Under the pieces are notes generated by a model that saw only the letters and a program-made list of their open reading frames with translations, was not told the DNA's origin and ran no database searches. DNA of 64,000 nt, from positions 1-64,000 of the forward strand of contig JAISSX010000030.1 in NCBI GenBank assembly GCA_031272885.1. The letters run 5' to 3'. Position 1 is the first letter of the stretch. Each line of letters opens with the position of its first letter. This document shows positions 9,196 through 17,794 of this stretch, piece by piece. The position numbers were made by a program, and so were the translations under genes. This DNA is from Bifidobacteriaceae bacterium. GTDB taxonomy: Bacteria; Actinomycetota; Actinomycetes; Actinomycetales; WQXJ01.

Positions 9196-9852
9196 TCAGG
9201 TTGATGCCCCTGAATCCTGAGCGACTAGGGAGCGCACCAAGGCGCCATGGCCAACCACGTACAAGGCCAGGGAAAGCGGACCAGGGAACAACAGCACGCT
9301 GGTAGGCATGTGGGCCACCGCGAAAGCGGCGGCGGCCAGCGCCCCCACCGCCACGGCCGTGGCACCTGGGTGGGAGGCCACCAAACTTGCGGCGGTCCGC
9401 AGCACCGCCCTGTCGGGCGCATCGTAATCGGCCATGACCACCCAGATGAAGACGGTCAGCCCGCCCAGCAGCGCAGCGGCCACGGTGAGCGGAGCCAGGA
9501 CCATAAACGACTGCCCGAACCGGCGGAACAAGCCCCAGGAACCCAGCCCGACAACGGCCCAAGTGGTAGCCAGCAACGCTCCCAACCGACTGGCCTGGCC
9601 GAAACTGCGGCGGAACTCTTGGATGAACTCGGTGGCACACCAGCCTTCGATGCCGTTCCGGCGCCAGTAGCGCACCAGGCCGAACAGGGCAGCCGTGCCG
9701 GCGGGGGCGGTGACAACGCCGACCAGGCAGACCAACCACATCAAGGTGGCCAGGAGCAGGCCGCCGACCACTTCAACCACCGAGACGTACCGGCCCCGCA
9801 GAGCCGTCAGCGGGCCGGGCCGGTCTTGCGTTGAGCCATTTGTGGTAGTCAT
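9196..9852 (-). CDS. YesL-family (DUF624) membrane protein
   Basis: Integral membrane protein, 218 residues, with about five hydrophobic helices. The family pattern is visible: a first helix ending in LVCLVGVVTAPAGTAALFGLVRYW and a following FIQEFRRSFGQASRLGALL. YesL-type proteins are typical partners of sugar ABC transporter operons, with no assigned biochemical role. The ATG at 9852 overlaps the stop of the preceding permease (9849-9852), so it is translationally coupled to the transporter and is the last gene of the alpha-mannoside operon. Confidence 0.8.
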   Translation of the reverse strand: MTTTNGSTQDRPGPLTALRGRYVSVVEVVGGLLLATLMWLVCLVGVVTAPAGTAALFGLVRYWRRNGIEGWCATEFIQEFRRSFGQASRLGALLATTWAVVGLGSWGLFRRFGQSFMVLAPLTVAAALLGGLTVFIWVVMADYDAPDRAVLRTAASLVASHPGATAVAVGALAAAAFAVAHMPTSVLLFPGPLSLALYVVGHGALVRSLVAQDSGAST

Positions 9853-10754
9853 CCGCGTATTCCCGTCGTCGAGATGCCTTCGATCAAGCGCCTCTGGGCC
9901 AGCAGGAAGAAGGCCGTCGTCGGGATCAAGGAGATGACCGACATCGCCATCAGCTTGCCCCATTGTGAGCCATAGGTGGAGGCCTGAAGCGCGGCCAAGC
10001 CCAGTGGCACCGTGAAGTTGGTGAAGTCGTTGAGGTAGATGAGTTGCCCAAAGAAGTCATCCCAGGTCCACATGAAGGTGAAGATGGCAGTGGTCACCAT
10101 GGCCGGGGTGGTCAAGGGTAGGACGATCCTGACGAACACGCGGAAGGGGCCGCAACCGTCGATCTCGGCCGCCTCGTCCAGATCGCGCGGCAAGCCGCGG
10201 ATGAACTGGACCATGAGGAAGACGAAGAACCCGTCCACGGCAAAGAACTTGGGCACCACCAGGGGCAGGATGGTGTCAATCCAGCCCAGCGTGCGGAAGA
10301 CGATGTATTGGGGCACCACAACCACGTGGTAGGGAACCATCATGGTCAGCAACATGATGGCGAACCAGCCTCCCCTGAAGCGGAACTTCAGGCGGGCAAA
10401 GGCGAAAGCGGCCAGGGTGCAACTGACCACGTTGCCGATCACGGCCAGGATGGCGATCACGGCCGAGTTGCGCAGATAGAGGCTGAAGCTCGACTGCCCG
10501 GCCACCCAGCCTTCCGGATAGTTGGTCAAGACGAATTCTTCGGGCCACAGGCTGGCGCTGCCGAAGATTTCGTTTTCGGGTTTCACGGAACTGGCCAGCA
10601 TCCACAACAGCGGGTAGAGCATCACGAACAGGCCACCGGCCAGGAAGACCTGGAGCAGGACGCGGCCAAGACGGATTTGGCGCCGGACCCTATTGGGCGC
10701 CTTGGTGGCGGGGAGAGCCGGGCGGCTCTCGGCCGGGCCTTTCAGCAGTGTCAC
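9849..10754 (-). CDS. Sugar ABC transporter permease (MalG/CUT1 type)
   Basis: Inner-membrane permease of 301 residues with six predicted helices and the CUT1 EAA loop (RDLDEAAEIDGCGPFRVFVRIVLPL), which contacts the ATPase. The N-terminal 30 residues are a polar cytoplasmic extension. It lies 9 nt after the MalF-type permease and overlaps the YesL-like gene. No ATPase gene is present in this operon; CUT1 systems in Actinobacteria often share one MsiK-type ATPase encoded elsewhere. Context with GH125 suggests alpha-mannosides as substrate. Confidence 0.92.
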   Translation of the reverse strand: MTLLKGPAESRPALPATKAPNRVRRQIRLGRVLLQVFLAGGLFVMLYPLLWMLASSVKPENEIFGSASLWPEEFVLTNYPEGWVAGQSSFSLYLRNSAVIAILAVIGNVVSCTLAAFAFARLKFRFRGGWFAIMLLTMMVPYHVVVVPQYIVFRTLGWIDTILPLVVPKFFAVDGFFVFLMVQFIRGLPRDLDEAAEIDGCGPFRVFVRIVLPLTTPAMVTTAIFTFMWTWDDFFGQLIYLNDFTNFTVPLGLAALQASTYGSQWGKLMAMSVISLIPTTAFFLLAQRRLIEGISTTGIRG

Positions 10755-10763
10755 TTTCCCCCC

Positions 10764-11726
10764 TCAGTCCTGGTAGTGGACCCAGTAGCGCGAGGTCCAG
10801 AACAGCAGTCCAGTGGCGCCGGCGATCATCACCAGCAGGGTCCACGCCAATGCCGAGGCGTAGCCCATGTGGAAGTAGCTGAAGCCGGTTTGGTAGATGT
10901 ACAGCGTGTAGAAGAGAGTCGAATCGGCCGGACCGCCCGAACCACCCGAGACTATATAGGCCGGAAGAAAGGCCTGGAAGGCTCCGATCACCTGCATCAC
11001 GATGTTGAAGAACAGCACCGGCGACAACATGGGGATGGTGATCGAGAAGAACTGTCGGGCCTTCGACGCACCGTCCACTTGCGCGGCCTCGTAGTACTCA
11101 CGGGGTATCTGTTTCAGCCCGGCCAGGAAAATGACCATGGGGGCACCAAACTGCCAGGCCCGCAACAGGATCAACGTGAGCAACGAGGTCGATGGTTGCT
11201 GCACCCAGTTGGGCAGTGTCTCGATGCCGGTGATGGCTCCGAGAATGGAGTTGACCACGCCACCGCGGCCGAACACTTGGCGCCACATCACGGCCACCGC
11301 CACCGATGATCCGAGTAGCGACGGCAGGTAGTAGGCGGCTCGGTACCAGCCAACCCCGCGCATGGGACGGTTGAGCAGCATGGCCAACAGCAACGCGAAG
11401 ACCAGTTGGAGGGGAACCGAAACCAGGACGTAGACGAAGGTGACTCGCAGGGAAGTCAGGTAGCGAGAATCCGCCGTCAGCATCTTGACGTAGTTGGACC
11501 AGCCGACGAAACCGAACTTGCCGATCAGGGAATAGTCCGTGAAGGACAACACCAGTGACGCGAGCAAGGGGCCGATCGTAAAGACCGTCAGCCCGATCAG
11601 CCAGGGAGTCAGGAAGGCGTAGCCGGCCAGGTTTGCCCGCCGTGCCCGTCTGGAGCGCGAGGCGCCCCGAGAGCCGGCCTTGGCCGCACGACCATGGCGA
11701 GAGCCCACCAGCGAGGTTGTCGTCAT
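10764..11726 (-). CDS. Sugar ABC transporter permease (MalF/CUT1 type)
   Basis: Inner-membrane permease, 320 residues. A basic N-terminal tail (SRRARRANLAGYAF) precedes six helices, and the EAA loop is REYYEAAQVDGASKARQFFSITIPML. The ATG at 11726 was preferred over the upstream open frame because the protein then starts like other MalF-type permeases. It is placed between the solute-binding protein and the MalG-type permease, giving a standard binding-protein/permease/permease order. Confidence 0.92.
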   Translation of the reverse strand: MTTTSLVGSRHGRAAKAGSRGASRSRRARRANLAGYAFLTPWLIGLTVFTIGPLLASLVLSFTDYSLIGKFGFVGWSNYVKMLTADSRYLTSLRVTFVYVLVSVPLQLVFALLLAMLLNRPMRGVGWYRAAYYLPSLLGSSVAVAVMWRQVFGRGGVVNSILGAITGIETLPNWVQQPSTSLLTLILLRAWQFGAPMVIFLAGLKQIPREYYEAAQVDGASKARQFFSITIPMLSPVLFFNIVMQVIGAFQAFLPAYIVSGGSGGPADSTLFYTLYIYQTGFSYFHMGYASALAWTLLVMIAGATGLLFWTSRYWVHYQD

Positions 11727-11767
11727 GGTTGTGCCTACACTCTCGGAGCACCTCACGGTGATAATTC

Positions 11768-13144
11768 CTAACCTTGCAGCATGGCCGGGGCTTCGGCGAA
11801 GAAACGCGCCGCGGCCGCTTCGGGCGTTGAAGAGCCGTAGGCCACCTCTTGGGCCACCACGCCCAGCAGATTCGAAACTTCGGACCAACCGGCCGGTGAC
11901 AGCGGCGGCACGGGTCCGGCGTTGTCGGACACCAGCCCGATCAGGTCGATCATCTTGGAAGCATCCGCGTTGCCTTGTGCACGTAGGGCTTCCTGCATGA
12001 CCTCCTTGGCGGGCATACGGCCGGTAACGACGGCTGGCACGGCGGTGTCGTTTATGAAGAAGTTGACTACTGCGGCGGCTTCTTCTGGATACTTGGTTCC
12101 GGAGTAGATGCTCAGCAGGTCACCTGAGATCAGCCAGCCGGCCTTGTCGGCGACGACGCCGGGGTATGGCACCATCTGGATTTCCGATGGCGCGGCCGGC
12201 TGCCATCCTTGTAGGTCACCCGAGTAGCGCCAAGACGAGGCCGAGACGCCCTGAATCATCGGATCGGTCTCGGTTGACGAAGAGTCGTAGCCTGCCACGT
12301 CTGGCGGGGTAATGGCGCCCGCATCGCGCAAGTCGGCCCAGAACTGCAGCCAGGTCACGAAATCGGCTTCATCGAAGGCGAGTTGGCCATCGGCGGTGAC
12401 CAGATCCTTGCCAATGCCGTGCAGGTAGACTTGAAGGGCGGCGTCGTTGGCCGAACCGTCGGCGCAGCCGTAGACGTTTGTCTTGCCCAAACCGGCCGTG
12501 ACGTCCTTGCAGAATTGGGCGAAGTCGTCCCAAGTCCAACTGGCCGCGGGAGCGTCGACGCCAGCTTCTGCCAAGACATCGGGCAGATACATGAAGGCGT
12601 GGGTCATGATCGTCATCGGCACACCAACCAGGCTGCCGTCAATGGTGAGGGAGTCAAGTAGGTTCTGGTCGATGCCGCTCAGGTCGAGGTTGGAGAACGA
12701 ATTGAGGTCAGCCAGGGCGCCCCGGGAGAAGTACTCCTGGATGGTACTCGGATAGTGCTGCTGCACGTCAGGGGCGGTACCACCGGCCACCTGGGTGGAT
12801 AGCTTGGAGAAATACGAATCCCAGTCGGCGCCTTGGCCGATCACCGTGATACCTGGGTTCTTCTCGGAGAAAGTTCCCAGTAGGGAGATCATCTTGTTGT
12901 TGGTCTCGGAGTCGCCCCACCAGGCCATCTGCAGTTCTACGGCTTCACCACCGGAATCGCCTGAATTGTCGGCCTGTGCTGTGGTTGCGTCGGTACCGGT
13001 GGTGTCAGTGGCGGCGTCGGTGGTGGTCGCGCCGTCTGAGGCCTTGTTGTCGTCACTTGAACAGGCACCCATCCCGGCCGCGGTGCTCAAGGCGACCGCG
13101 GCCACCAGGATGGACCGCACTAGTTTGCTCTTGTACTTGGTCAT
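11768..13144 (-). CDS. Sugar ABC transporter solute-binding lipoprotein
   Basis: Extracellular family 1 solute-binding protein, 458 residues. A lipoprotein signal peptide (MTKYKSKLVRSILVAAVALS then lipobox AAGMGAC) is followed by a Thr/Asp-rich linker (residues 30-65) and a two-lobed binding domain starting LQMAWWGDSETNNKMISLLGTF. The ATG at 13144 has AAGGACAG upstream. The aromatic-rich middle part fits oligosaccharide binding. Placed directly downstream of the GH125 and unknown genes, it would capture alpha-mannosides or N-glycan/yeast-mannan fragments at the cell surface. Confidence 0.92.
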   Translation of the reverse strand: MTKYKSKLVRSILVAAVALSTAAGMGACSSDDNKASDGATTTDAATDTTGTDATTAQADNSGDSGGEAVELQMAWWGDSETNNKMISLLGTFSEKNPGITVIGQGADWDSYFSKLSTQVAGGTAPDVQQHYPSTIQEYFSRGALADLNSFSNLDLSGIDQNLLDSLTIDGSLVGVPMTIMTHAFMYLPDVLAEAGVDAPAASWTWDDFAQFCKDVTAGLGKTNVYGCADGSANDAALQVYLHGIGKDLVTADGQLAFDEADFVTWLQFWADLRDAGAITPPDVAGYDSSSTETDPMIQGVSASSWRYSGDLQGWQPAAPSEIQMVPYPGVVADKAGWLISGDLLSIYSGTKYPEEAAAVVNFFINDTAVPAVVTGRMPAKEVMQEALRAQGNADASKMIDLIGLVSDNAGPVPPLSPAGWSEVSNLLGVVAQEVAYGSSTPEAAAARFFAEAPAMLQG

Positions 13145-13217
13145 CTGTCTGTCCTTTCGTATTGCCTTGATCTTGTCTTGTCTCGTTGTGGGTCTTTCGG
13201 TTGGTTGGGCTGGTTGC

Positions 13218-15053
13218 TCACAGCCCGCGATCCTCGCCGGGCAGGTAACCGCCTGCGGCGAGGATCCGCGCATAGCGGGCGACCGTTGATGGCAGCACAT
13301 TGCGCAACCTGGTTTCGTCCTGCCGTCCAGCGATCCAGTTGGCCAGTTCCAGGAACCGCCGACCGTGGCTCCAGATGTAGGGAGCGAAAGCAATCACTGG
13401 CGCATCTAGGGTCCCGATCAGCCAGCCCGGCCCCAAGCGAGGGGCGTCTTCCTTGACTTCTTCGGCGGTGGTGACACGCACGAAGGGTGACGCGGTCGCC
13501 AGTGAGCGAGCCGTCTGGTTGATGATCGCCATTGACCCGCACAGGCGCAGTCGGTTGCGGCCAGGACAGGCCGAAGAGATGACGTACTCCAACCCGGCCG
13601 AGGCGATGGCTTCGTAGACGGCCGGTTCGGCCGGTTCCAGCGTCTCAAGCGAGGTGTCGCAGAATGCCTGGTAGCCGGTGGGCGTGTTGTTCGGCCCGGC
13701 GATTGCCCTGATGGTCTCAAGCGCGATGTGGCAGTGTTCGGCCAGGGCCTGGGGTGGGCATTGGTATTCGGCCAGAATGCCGCGGCCACCCGAATACAGC
13801 ACCGGCTCGATCAAGCCGCGGGCCCCGCCCGCTTCGCGCGCCGCGGCAATGTATTCCCACTGCTGCCAGGAGTGGCGATAGCGGTCATCGTGGACGCCTA
13901 AACCCATCTTGATGTCGTTGGTGCAGGCGAATTCGGCCAGAGCCAGCATGGCTTCGGTGTGGGCCGATTCGCCCGAGTGCCACAGCAAGGTGGTCACGAT
14001 CAACCCCTGCTCGGCCCAGGCGCGCAACTCGGCATCGGTCGGTTCGGCAGCGTCGAAACGTGCCGGCGCAGCGTCCCAGTGCTGGCCTAGCCCACCTGCG
14101 GAGGACAGGGCCGGCCGGTTCGGCTCGGTGATCTGGCAGGCGATGCCGTGTCTAGACCAGGCGAACAGGTCGCCATCGCACGTTTGGCGGCCGACGATGA
14201 CGTTGTTGCCGGTCTGGATGGCCAGTTGGGCAGCGGCTTCGGCCGCACTGGATGTCTCTTCGGTGTAGGCACTGAACCGAACGGCGGCCGGATCCATGGG
14301 TGTGGTCGGGCCGTACAACGCAACCCTCTTCTCGCGGGCAAACCGCGGGATGCTGGACATGACAGAGTACGGTTCGCCGAAACCGACCCCGGCCGCCGAG
14401 CCAACCCACCGGCGAGCTATCCGTTCGGTGACCTCGGCCAGGCCTTCGCCATCGGCCATCGAATCGACCACCTCTACCTGGTGGCCGGCCGCCTGCAGCT
14501 TGGCCAAGGCGGCGCCGTCGAGGTAGGCCGCGAAGACCTTGGTCGAGACTTCTGGGGCTTCGAGTTCACTGGCCGGTACACCGATGGCTTGACGTCCAGC
14601 GATCTCCGGATAGAGGTAGGGGGCAACGGCCAGGGCATCGCCCAAGTCGCTCGCCGGTCCCGCCAACACGCCGTCTTGAATGGGCAGGCCGGCCAGTGCG
14701 GCGGCTGCTCGGCCCAGGTCGAGGGCCCGGGCGGCGGTAGCAGCAACAGGCACCTGGAGGGTCCGAATGGTTGACGCGTACAGCGAAGGCGTGCCGAGCT
14801 GGAAGACCACGACACGATAGGCGGCACAGATGAGATTGAACTGGGCGTAGTGGGCGCCTGAGATGACAGGACTGCCCGTCAACGCGAACAGGGCGCCGTC
14901 TCGGCGGTCCTCGACGTAGGCGTCGAATTCGGCGCCGGCCAGGGGCGCCATCCAGGCGAGAGTGGCGGCAGCGTACGGCGTGGCCGGATCGGCCGCCTGC
15001 GCCAGCAGCAGCCAGAGCGTGGGACGCTCGGCTTGCGAGTCTGACAAGCCCAA
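13218..15053 (-). CDS. Unrecognised 611-residue protein in the alpha-mannosidase operon
   Basis: I do not recognise this family. The protein is cytoplasmic: no signal peptide or membrane helix. The N-terminal third reads as an alpha/beta fold (PTLWLLLAQAADPATPYA; YRVVVFQLGTPSLY). A central part has ARRWVGSAAGVGFGEPYSVMSSI and VALYGPTTPMDPAAVRFSAY. The C-terminal half looks barrel-like, with possible active-site clusters LLWHSGESAHTEAMLAL, MGLGVHDDRYRHSWQQWEYI and YVISSACPGRNRLRLCGS. A Shine-Dalgarno AAAGGAGG ends 8 nt before the TTG at 15053, which I take as the start; a GTG at 15062 overlaps that site. It lies between GH125 and the binding protein on the same strand, so a role in handling imported mannosides is inferred. 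Confidence 0.8.
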   Translation of the reverse strand: MGLSDSQAERPTLWLLLAQAADPATPYAAATLAWMAPLAGAEFDAYVEDRRDGALFALTGSPVISGAHYAQFNLICAAYRVVVFQLGTPSLYASTIRTLQVPVAATAARALDLGRAAAALAGLPIQDGVLAGPASDLGDALAVAPYLYPEIAGRQAIGVPASELEAPEVSTKVFAAYLDGAALAKLQAAGHQVEVVDSMADGEGLAEVTERIARRWVGSAAGVGFGEPYSVMSSIPRFAREKRVALYGPTTPMDPAAVRFSAYTEETSSAAEAAAQLAIQTGNNVIVGRQTCDGDLFAWSRHGIACQITEPNRPALSSAGGLGQHWDAAPARFDAAEPTDAELRAWAEQGLIVTTLLWHSGESAHTEAMLALAEFACTNDIKMGLGVHDDRYRHSWQQWEYIAAAREAGGARGLIEPVLYSGGRGILAEYQCPPQALAEHCHIALETIRAIAGPNNTPTGYQAFCDTSLETLEPAEPAVYEAIASAGLEYVISSACPGRNRLRLCGSMAIINQTARSLATASPFVRVTTAEEVKEDAPRLGPGWLIGTLDAPVIAFAPYIWSHGRRFLELANWIAGRQDETRLRNVLPSTVARYARILAAGGYLPGEDRGL

Positions 15054-15093
15054 CTGGGTCACCTCCTTTGGTGAGTCTTGGTACTCGAATTGT

Positions 15094-16428
15094 CTAGGCC
15101 ACCGCCTGGCGCAGTCTGAGCGGACAGTGACCGGCCATCATCAATCCGGCCTCGACCAGGACAGCTTCGCTGAACAGAGCGTTGGCCCAACCGAACCAAG
15201 CCCGCGTGAAATCGGCCGGATTGTCGACATGGAACGCCTCATGCAGCAGGCCGGTCCCGGCATCGGTCGCAGCCAACACCCGGAGTAGTTCGCGCCGTTC
15301 GTCGGTTCCGTTCGCCGTCAAGGCTTGCATGGCCAAGGCAATCGGCCAGACGCGGCGTTGTTCCCCAACGTGCGGGCTACCCACGCCGGCGGCGTAGGCC
15401 CCCTCGTAGTAGTACGGGTTGGCCGGGCTGAGGACGAAACGGCGAGTGCGCAAGTACAACGAATCACTAGCCTCACACCAACCCAGGTAGGGTAGGGACA
15501 GGAGGCTGGGGATGTTGGCGTCATCCATCAGGTTGGCGTGCCCCATGCCATCGATCTCGTAGGCCAGGATCTGACCGAAGCCATCTAGTTCGACCAACCC
15601 TTCGCGGATGATCGCTGCGTCGATTCTGCCGGCGTGGTCAAGCGCCCTTGAGGCCAGACCTGGTTCTTGGTCACCGATCAGGGCCGCGAGCTTGCGGGCA
15701 GCCACCGCCGTGAAGGCGTTGCCGGGGATCGAGAGGTTGTAGGTGCAGGCATCGTCGCTGGGGCGGAAGCCCTCCCATAACAGTCCGTTCTGGTGCACGG
15801 GCGCGCCGTGCCCACCGAAGGCCAAGGTGTCCAACGGCGCGGCACCGGGCCGGCTGAACCGGTAAGAGGACCGCCCTGTGTGGTCAGCTTCGGCATCCCA
15901 GGTGGCGACGATGGTCCGGGCGGCCGCGGTAAAGGTGCCGTCCAAGTGGTCTGTGTGCCCGGTCAGGACGGCAATGTCCCAAGCCAGGGCGATCGGGTAG
16001 GCCAGCGAGTCAAGCTCGAACTTGCGCTCCCACACCCACGGGCTGACCGGACCTTCGTCGGCAGCGTCCCAGTGTGCCCCGGAGGCAGTCTCATTGAAGG
16101 CGTTCGCATACGGGTCATGGGTGATGAAGCGGAACTGCCGCTGGTTGACGGCGATCAACAACTCGGCGAAGCGCTCATCGCGGACGGCCAGGGGCAGATA
16201 GGGCCGGACCTGGGCGGCTGAGTCGCGCAGCCACATAGCGGGGATGTCACCGGTCATCAACCAGACGGTCGAATCGGCTTGTTCGCGGGCCTGCTTCGAT
16301 TCGATCAGATTGGTGAAGGCCACACGGAACAGGGGGGCGACGCCGACCAGGCTTGGATCCAGCAGTTCCCGCACGTCATCGGCCAGGCCGGAAGCGGCCC
16401 GTGCCATGCCTGCCCAATCGAACGCCAT
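15094..16428 (-). CDS. GH125 exo-alpha-mannosidase
   Basis: Metal-independent glycoside hydrolase family 125 enzyme, 444 residues, probably an intracellular exo-alpha-1,6-mannosidase. Signature segments are TGDIPAMWLRDSAAQ (residues 59-73), DDANIPSLLSLPYL and, near the C-terminus, HEAFHVDNPADFTRAWFGWANALFSE, which contain the conserved acidic residues of the family. There is no signal peptide, so mannosides are cleaved after import. The ATG at 16428 has a strong AGGAGGTG site 7 nt upstream. It is the first gene of the operon (unknown protein, ABC transporter, YesL) and is preceded by a clear promoter and palindromic operator at 16458-16486. Confidence 0.92.
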   Translation of the reverse strand: MAFDWAGMARAASGLADDVRELLDPSLVGVAPLFRVAFTNLIESKQAREQADSTVWLMTGDIPAMWLRDSAAQVRPYLPLAVRDERFAELLIAVNQRQFRFITHDPYANAFNETASGAHWDAADEGPVSPWVWERKFELDSLAYPIALAWDIAVLTGHTDHLDGTFTAAARTIVATWDAEADHTGRSSYRFSRPGAAPLDTLAFGGHGAPVHQNGLLWEGFRPSDDACTYNLSIPGNAFTAVAARKLAALIGDQEPGLASRALDHAGRIDAAIIREGLVELDGFGQILAYEIDGMGHANLMDDANIPSLLSLPYLGWCEASDSLYLRTRRFVLSPANPYYYEGAYAAGVGSPHVGEQRRVWPIALAMQALTANGTDERRELLRVLAATDAGTGLLHEAFHVDNPADFTRAWFGWANALFSEAVLVEAGLMMAGHCPLRLRQAVA

Positions 16429-16457
16429 TCGCGACACCTCCTCGTGTGCTGAAGGTA

Positions 16458-16486
16458 AGTAAATCAACTTGATTTATACCTGTCAA
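16458..16486 (-). promoter_or_regulatory. Promoter and ROK-type operator of the GH125 operon
   Basis: On the minus strand TTGACA (16486-16481), a 17-nt spacer and TTTACT (16463-16458) form a standard promoter. The spacer and -10 region hold a perfect palindrome at 16460-16476, TAAATCAA-C-TTGATTTA (8-bp arms). A protein bound there would block RNA polymerase. The divergence from GC-rich surroundings and the ROK regulator gene just upstream (16526-17794) make that regulator the likely ligand. Confidence 0.75.
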
Positions 16487-16525
16487 GAGGCAAGTCTCAT
16501 GACTTGGGTAAGTGTTGGATCAGGT

Positions 16526-17794
16526 TCAGGCGTTGAGGAACAGCGTGGAAGCGCGCGGCGAGAACATCTCGTCAAATGCCAAGGTTGCCGCACCCACGGC
16601 CCCGACATCGGTCCCCACGGCCGATCCACGGACCAGCACCTGGCGCAGGGGCGCCAGCCCGGCAAAGCTGTTGACGTCTGCCGCCAGCCAGCGCATGTAC
16701 CAGGCTTCCAGGTGGTGCCAATAGGGCCCGCCCACAATGACCTGATCGGCGTCGACCAAGTCGCTGATGGTGGCGATCGCCTGAGCCGTCGCTTCGCTGC
16801 CTCTGCGCAGAATGTCCAGCGCCTTGGCCTCACCCCGCGCGGCCGAGGCGGTCAAACAGGACAGGGCCAGGTCAATCGGATCCAGTGGCGGCTGGGTCGA
16901 ATCCGTCGCCTCTGACGAACGGTCGAGCAGGGTGCCAACCTCTGACGGCACCAGGCCGGCGGCGATCGCCTTCGAGGCCAGTGCAAGCGGTTGGCATTCC
17001 CGGCCGAAATAGCCCACAACCGAACTGCCATCTTGGGTTGGCTGGCCGACCAAGAGATCGCCGCATTCCCCCGCGTTCAGGGTGGAGCCACGAATCACTT
17101 CCCCGTTGGCCATCAGCCCGGCGCCAACGCCCGAGCCGAGGTAGATGAAGATGGCGGTTCGTCCGGTCAAGTTCCGCGCCAGCCAGCGTTCGGCCACCAT
17201 CGAGGCGATGGCGTCCTTGCTCATCACGGTCTCGAGGCCGGTTGATTCCCGCAAGGCATCGCGCAGGTGGACGTCCTCCCAGCCTCGCAAGTTTGGGGGA
17301 TGCACCACCGTACCCTCCGCAGCGTTGATGGGACCGGGCGCCGCCACACCAAGACCGATAATCGCTCCTTTGGGTGCGTTGGAGGCACTGATGACGCCGT
17401 CCACCAGGTCAGTCACCCTGGAGACCACCAGACCGGGATCGTGCGACAGCGGGGTGGTGATGCGCTCCCGGGCGGTCACGTCGCCACACCAGTTCATCAC
17501 CACGACGGTGGTTGTGGTCGGGTCGATGTGAATGCCAACGGCATAGCGGGCATTGCGCTTGAGTTGCAGGATGGTGCGCGGCTTGCCCGGTCCAACCGTC
17601 TCCCGCCCCACTTCCGCAATCAGCCCACTGGCCAGCAGTTTCTTTGCGATGTTGGTGATGGTTTGGCTGGACAAGCCCGTGTCCGAGGCCAGTTCGACCC
17701 GCGATAGGCCATCGGGCACGCGGCGGATGGCCTCAAGGACAACAATCTGGTTGAAGTCGCCCACTTTCGGCAGGTTGGTCCCGCTGGGAATCAC
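16526..17794 (-). CDS. ROK-family transcriptional repressor
   Basis: Regulator of 422 residues: an N-terminal winged helix (residues 12-75; VVLEAIRRVPDGLSRVELASDTGLSSQTITNIAKKLL) fused to a ROK sugar-kinase-like domain (YAVGIHIDPTTTTVVVMNW; IIGLGVAAPGPIN; FIYLGSGVGAGL). The usual zinc-site cysteine cluster is not evident: after NAGECGDLLVGQ comes only a single further Cys. It sits upstream of the GH125 operon on the same strand and probably senses mannose or a mannoside. Its GTG start lies 6 nt after TAGGAT (17806-17801), so its mRNA is probably leaderless. Confidence 0.87.
   Translation of the reverse strand: MIPSGTNLPKVGDFNQIVVLEAIRRVPDGLSRVELASDTGLSSQTITNIAKKLLASGLIAEVGRETVGPGKPRTILQLKRNARYAVGIHIDPTTTTVVVMNWCGDVTARERITTPLSHDPGLVVSRVTDLVDGVISASNAPKGAIIGLGVAAPGPINAAEGTVVHPPNLRGWEDVHLRDALRESTGLETVMSKDAIASMVAERWLARNLTGRTAIFIYLGSGVGAGLMANGEVIRGSTLNAGECGDLLVGQPTQDGSSVVGYFGRECQPLALASKAIAAGLVPSEVGTLLDRSSEATDSTQPPLDPIDLALSCLTASAARGEAKALDILRRGSEATAQAIATISDLVDADQVIVGGPYWHHLEAWYMRWLAADVNSFAGLAPLRQVLVRGSAVGTDVGAVGAATLAFDEMFSPRASTLFLNA

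Follow-up and report, generated by a model that had tools for sequence, protein, structure and literature searches.

The window analysed here, a stretch of 64,000 nucleotides of contig JAISSX010000030.1 from a Bifidobacteriaceae bacterium, contains on its minus strand (13218-15053) an open reading frame of 611 amino acids, which starts at a TTG codon preceded by AAGGAGG, a ribosome-binding site that the alternative, longer form with a GTG start overlaps. On sequence comparison it is a genuine gene and not a chance open reading frame, because homologues in many phyla align with it over its whole length. It lies, as the sequence-only reading had described, between a GH125 alpha-mannosidase and a transporter. 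All on the minus strand, the genes run in the order (i) a ROK-family regulator with an N-terminal winged helix (16526-17794; PF00480, E 4.6e-32; PF12802); (ii) the GH125 enzyme (15094-16428; PF06824, E 7e-131), whose likely ATG start is at 16428 within an open reading frame reaching 16467; (iii) the 611-residue protein, after a gap of 40 bp; (iv) a lipoprotein-like ABC transporter sugar-binding protein (11768-13144; PF13416/PF01547); (v) two CUT1-type permeases, the first at 10764-11888 as its longest open reading frame, with a true start that is probably lower, and the second at 9849-10754 (both PF00528; best NCBIfam models UgpA and UgpE, respectively, each below cut-off); and (vi) a DUF624/YesL-like membrane protein (9196-9963; PF04854). 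The genes from GH125 to DUF624 form an apparent operon. The weak likeness of the DUF624 protein to MusI (NF052431, below cut-off) suggests a transporter accessory role. Among the transporter genes of 9196-17794 there is no ATPase gene; other actinobacterial CUT1 systems share an ATPase encoded elsewhere, and a shared ATPase is likely here as well.

The supposition that the protein shares a control region with GH125 and the transporter is supported by a dedicated site, a perfect 17-bp palindrome (TAAATCAACTTGATTTA, 16460-16476) situated between the ROK gene, which it adjoins, and GH125, just upstream of the latter and beside a TTGACA. This likely operator is unique in the 2.95-Mb genome, and no second site with up to three mismatches occurs in the window or the genome. 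An operator-like palindrome at the promoter region is what a ROK-repressed sugar operon would be expected to have. We only infer a promoter upstream of GH125, because a scan for consensus sigma-70 promoters gave no match. A comparable grouping of GH125, regulator, binding protein and permeases is known from Paenibacillus taichungensis, where the cluster comprises GH125, a regulator, an ABC transporter and GH76 (PMC12827396); the source genome differs from it in lacking GH76 and in having the additional 611-residue protein. As a companion enzyme, GH76 was absent above cut-off from all 15 genomes tested, the source genome included.

Homologues and their genomic settings

That the protein belongs to no assignable family was borne out by our searches, as neither it nor 16 of its homologues matched a family in Pfam, NCBIfam or the PDB sequences, and literature searches returned no description of such a family; PDB sequence-profile matches were at chance level only and were rejected. 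Single-sequence scans of genome contigs and viral contigs found no relatives, and an alignment-based query was required to find homologues in the genome contigs. The first relatives were three Azospirillum plasmid proteins (26-28% identity); two further homologues were found among 346 genomes of the source organism's class, 24 homologue loci were found in genome contigs by the alignment-based search, and a search of the class to which a Lentisphaerae genome belongs added further homologues. A homologue from an Actinobacteria MAG (L037:4717-6544), split between frames, was omitted from the alignments.

The homologues fall into three lineages: the window-like clade (38-55% identity) spans seven phyla, a second clade is found in exopolysaccharide clusters, and the third lineage is a single divergent sequence (L073), whose long branch makes both its placement and the tree root unsure. 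Within the window-like clade, the source protein forms a fully supported group with those of G248 and Streptomyces composti, and the remaining members belong to Bacillota, Lentisphaerota, Planctomycetota, Spirochaetota, Bacteroidota and WS1; among 397 sampled genomes of the source phylum, only two, the source genome included, have the window-like form. The exopolysaccharide clade, also fully supported, consists of sequences from Azospirillum, Chloroflexi and the actinobacterium G068. In the Azospirillum clusters the homologue is preceded by a fusion of glycosyltransferase and methyltransferase (shown for A. lipoferum) and followed by a Wzz/tyrosine-kinase-like gene, and the open reading frame upstream of the G068 homologue has, by reading of its sequence, glycosyltransferase and methyltransferase parts. 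The divergent homologue (L073:1134-3011) is flanked by a ROK-family gene and by a 593-residue protein without a Pfam match, which by eye looks like a mannose-6-phosphate isomerase, with an RpiR regulator next to it.

Most of the homologue loci inspected are carbohydrate-related, which, together with the absence of a known sequence family, agrees with the earlier proposal of a new glycoside-active or mannoside-processing family. The expectation that homologues would always lie next to GH125 did not hold. Among the 16 window-like loci (the source locus, L013-L024 and L070-L072), GH125 is adjacent in four (the source, L013, L014 and L015), and a separate clade resides in exopolysaccharide clusters. 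GH125 is nevertheless a real, yet partial and non-general, partner of the family, because it is present somewhere in 7 of the 12 genomes with a window-like copy, as against 10 of 247 genomes of the source class; none of six exopolysaccharide-clade genomes has it. GH125 precedes the homologue in the source locus, in G248 (with a 4-bp overlap) and in Streptomyces composti, and follows it in one Bacillota genome, and these two arrangements occupy separate branches of the tree.

A commoner neighbour than GH125 is a PF12831 FAD oxidoreductase, which is adjacent or within two genes in 13 of the 16 window-like loci, often directly adjacent and in many phyla. The count includes L023 and L071, whose oxidoreductases were assigned by their likeness to those scanned at L016 and L070. 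No such gene was seen at L017 and L024, and the source genome has no full-length one. In the literature searched on PF12831, or on GH125 with flavoenzymes, no carbohydrate role of PF12831 is described. The recurrent pairing of the two families is brought to light here. The PF12831 proteins beside the homologue (L013-L016, L018-L023 and L070-L072) are of about 470, 610 or 780-800 residues. Further, Gfo/Idh/MocA genes lie near the homologue at some loci, and CUT1-type permeases lie near it in four (the source, L013, L020 and L024, the last three similar to those of the source). In Streptomyces composti, a PL8 polysaccharide lyase gene (L014:11738-14446) comes after the homologue.

Predicted fold and invariant residues

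A full-length AlphaFold model built from 17 sequences was confident (pLDDT 86.8, pTM 0.90), as was a model of residues 331-611 alone (pLDDT 84.1, pTM 0.89). In a Foldseek search, the latter region (13221-14063) matched at probability 1.00 the GH57 4-alpha-glucanotransferase 1k1x, which had the lowest E-value (1.4e-7), the deacetylase 3rxz and the GH38 lysosomal mannosidase 1o7d, with the highest full-domain TM-scores to the query going to polysaccharide deacetylases (3rxz, TMq 0.60). Residues 331-611 are accordingly predicted to belong to the NodB/GH57/GH38 superfamily of deacetylase and glycosidase barrels, and the barrel-like, enzyme-like C-terminal half proposed from the sequence finds its counterpart in this model. 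The search with the full-length model returned mainly GT-B and KaiC folds of low probability, which were dismissed for TM-scores near 0.1, and its one informative match was GH38 Golgi mannosidase II (probability 0.99). Residues 1-330 (14064-15053), to which predicted secondary structure assigns two Rossmann-like subdomains, gave no significant fold match. Among viral proteins, Foldseek found nothing closer than distant matches. In profile alignments by hhalign, neither GH38 (probability 0.1) nor GH57 (probability 0.3, with a thin GH57 alignment) was significant, and NodB aligned weakly (probability 12.8), with matching strand order.

Across 22 sequences of the three lineages, the charged residues Asp293, Glu416, Glu429, Asp466, Asp550 and Arg593 are invariant, as is Tyr594. 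Asp293 is part of a conserved GRQ..D.D motif (residues 288-295) in the N-terminal part, and the barrel holds most of the acidic invariants; their position at its strand ends supports the earlier reading of an enzyme. In the model, Glu416 (codon 13806-13808) is in strand 3, Glu429 (13767-13769) is in the loop following it, Asp466 (13656-13658) comes after the fourth barrel strand and Asp550 (13404-13406) closes the strand formed by residues 543-550. The clusters HSGESAHTE, GVHDDRYRHSW and SSACPGRNR, which had been read as active-site loops, are conserved in the window-like clade, but the barrel residues conserved most deeply are the four acids just named. His359, Ser360, Gly361, Glu362, Ala364, His365 and Glu367 are invariant within that clade, as are Arg391, Tyr392, Gln397, Trp399 and Glu400, and Ser493, Pro497 and Arg499. 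Because the His359/Glu362/His365 set is missing outside the window-like clade, activity may differ between the clades.

The catalytic pair of GH57 enzymes consists of acidic residues at strand 4 and at a late strand, and Asp466 and Asp550 would occupy these places by strand order alone, which makes them a candidate catalytic residue and a candidate acid/base, respectively. Compared with GH57 (1k1x), the protein shares the predicted barrel and, going by strand order, would have acidic residues at both strands, whereas the one at strand 4 would be an Asp rather than a Glu, its barrel is C-terminal, behind the double Rossmann-like part, and it matches neither PF03065 nor a GH57 profile. With the GH38 alpha-mannosidases (1o7d and 3bvu, probability 1.00 and 0.99) it shares the barrel superfamily and a mannose-linked context, but the HxD zinc motif is absent from the 22 aligned homologues, and there is no PF01074 or profile match.

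Candidate activities

We consider it somewhat better than an even bet that the 611-residue protein represents an undescribed family of carbohydrate-active enzymes and works in the cytoplasm, most likely hydrolysing an imported mannose-containing oligosaccharide beside GH125, where "undescribed" refers to Pfam, NCBIfam, the PDB sequences and the literature, so that the family may still be a very recent one in CAZy. On this proposal, the CUT1 transporter would import a mannose-containing oligosaccharide, from which the protein would remove a linkage or substituent that blocks the exo-acting GH125; the chemistry would probably be performed by acidic residues at the barrel strand ends, with Asp466 and Asp550 as the candidate pair and Glu416 and Glu429 alongside, and the ROK regulator would probably repress the operon at the palindrome. 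In its favour we counted the confident model, the barrel matches, the invariant residues, the unique palindrome, the GH125 adjacency on separate branches, the rarity of GH125, the nearby CUT1 permeases and PL8. Against it we counted the non-significant GH38 and GH57 profile alignments and the weak NodB one, the lack of the His359/Glu362/His365 set in the other clades, the 12 of 16 window-like loci without an adjacent GH125, and the frequent FAD oxidoreductase partner, which simple hydrolysis does not explain and of which the source genome has no full-length gene. More tentatively, and with less than even confidence, we propose a new glycoside hydrolase family in which a barrel of the GH57/GH38/NodB superfamily would follow the double Rossmann-like part, an Asp/Asp pair would act on mannosides and an FAD oxidoreductase would often work alongside. 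The analysis gives the family, whose members are about 600 residues long, occur in at least seven phyla and are labelled hypothetical wherever annotation was seen, a fold prediction, a testable substrate class and candidates for the catalytic residues.

A CE4-like deacetylase, which would rid imported sugars of acetylation or of other ester or amide substituents and so clear the way for GH125, and whose exopolysaccharide-cluster relatives would deacetylate the polymer, is in our view unlikely. Many exopolysaccharide clusters encode deacetylases, and the structural likeness extends to several CE4/NodB enzymes (3rxz, 3qbu and ArnD 8t0j), which give the top full-domain TM-scores to the predicted model and share strand order with the family in the weak NodB alignment. 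However, the Asp-Asp and HxxxH motifs of CE4 enzymes, with their metal-binding Asp/His/His residues, have no conserved counterpart among the 22 aligned homologues, the late barrel strand ends in an Asp instead of the terminal His, neither the protein nor its homologues match PF01522 above cut-off, and the lowest Foldseek E-value belongs to GH57.

Quite improbable, as we see it, is an oxidative route, in which the PF12831 flavoenzyme would oxidise a sugar hydroxyl and the 611-residue type of protein would cleave or rearrange the resulting keto-glycoside, as in known 3-keto-glycoside pathways. The frequency of PF12831 genes near the homologue and the Gfo/Idh/MocA genes at some loci speak for such a route, but three window-like loci, the source among them, depart from the pairing as described above, and the predicted fold is one typical of hydrolases and deacetylases. 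That the protein is non-catalytic or transferase-like, for instance a sugar-binding or glycosyltransferase-related one in which the N-terminal Rossmann part does the work, would account for the GT-B folds drawn by the full-length search (probability 0.33 at best) and for the clade that sits between glycosyltransferase genes, but we judge it very unlikely, given the TM-scores near 0.1 of those matches and the location of the acidic invariants in the barrel.

Whichever their activity, some homologues may be exported, as the Cytophagales copy (L018:9881-9990) appears to begin with a Tat signal (KRRKFLGAGTLAAG).
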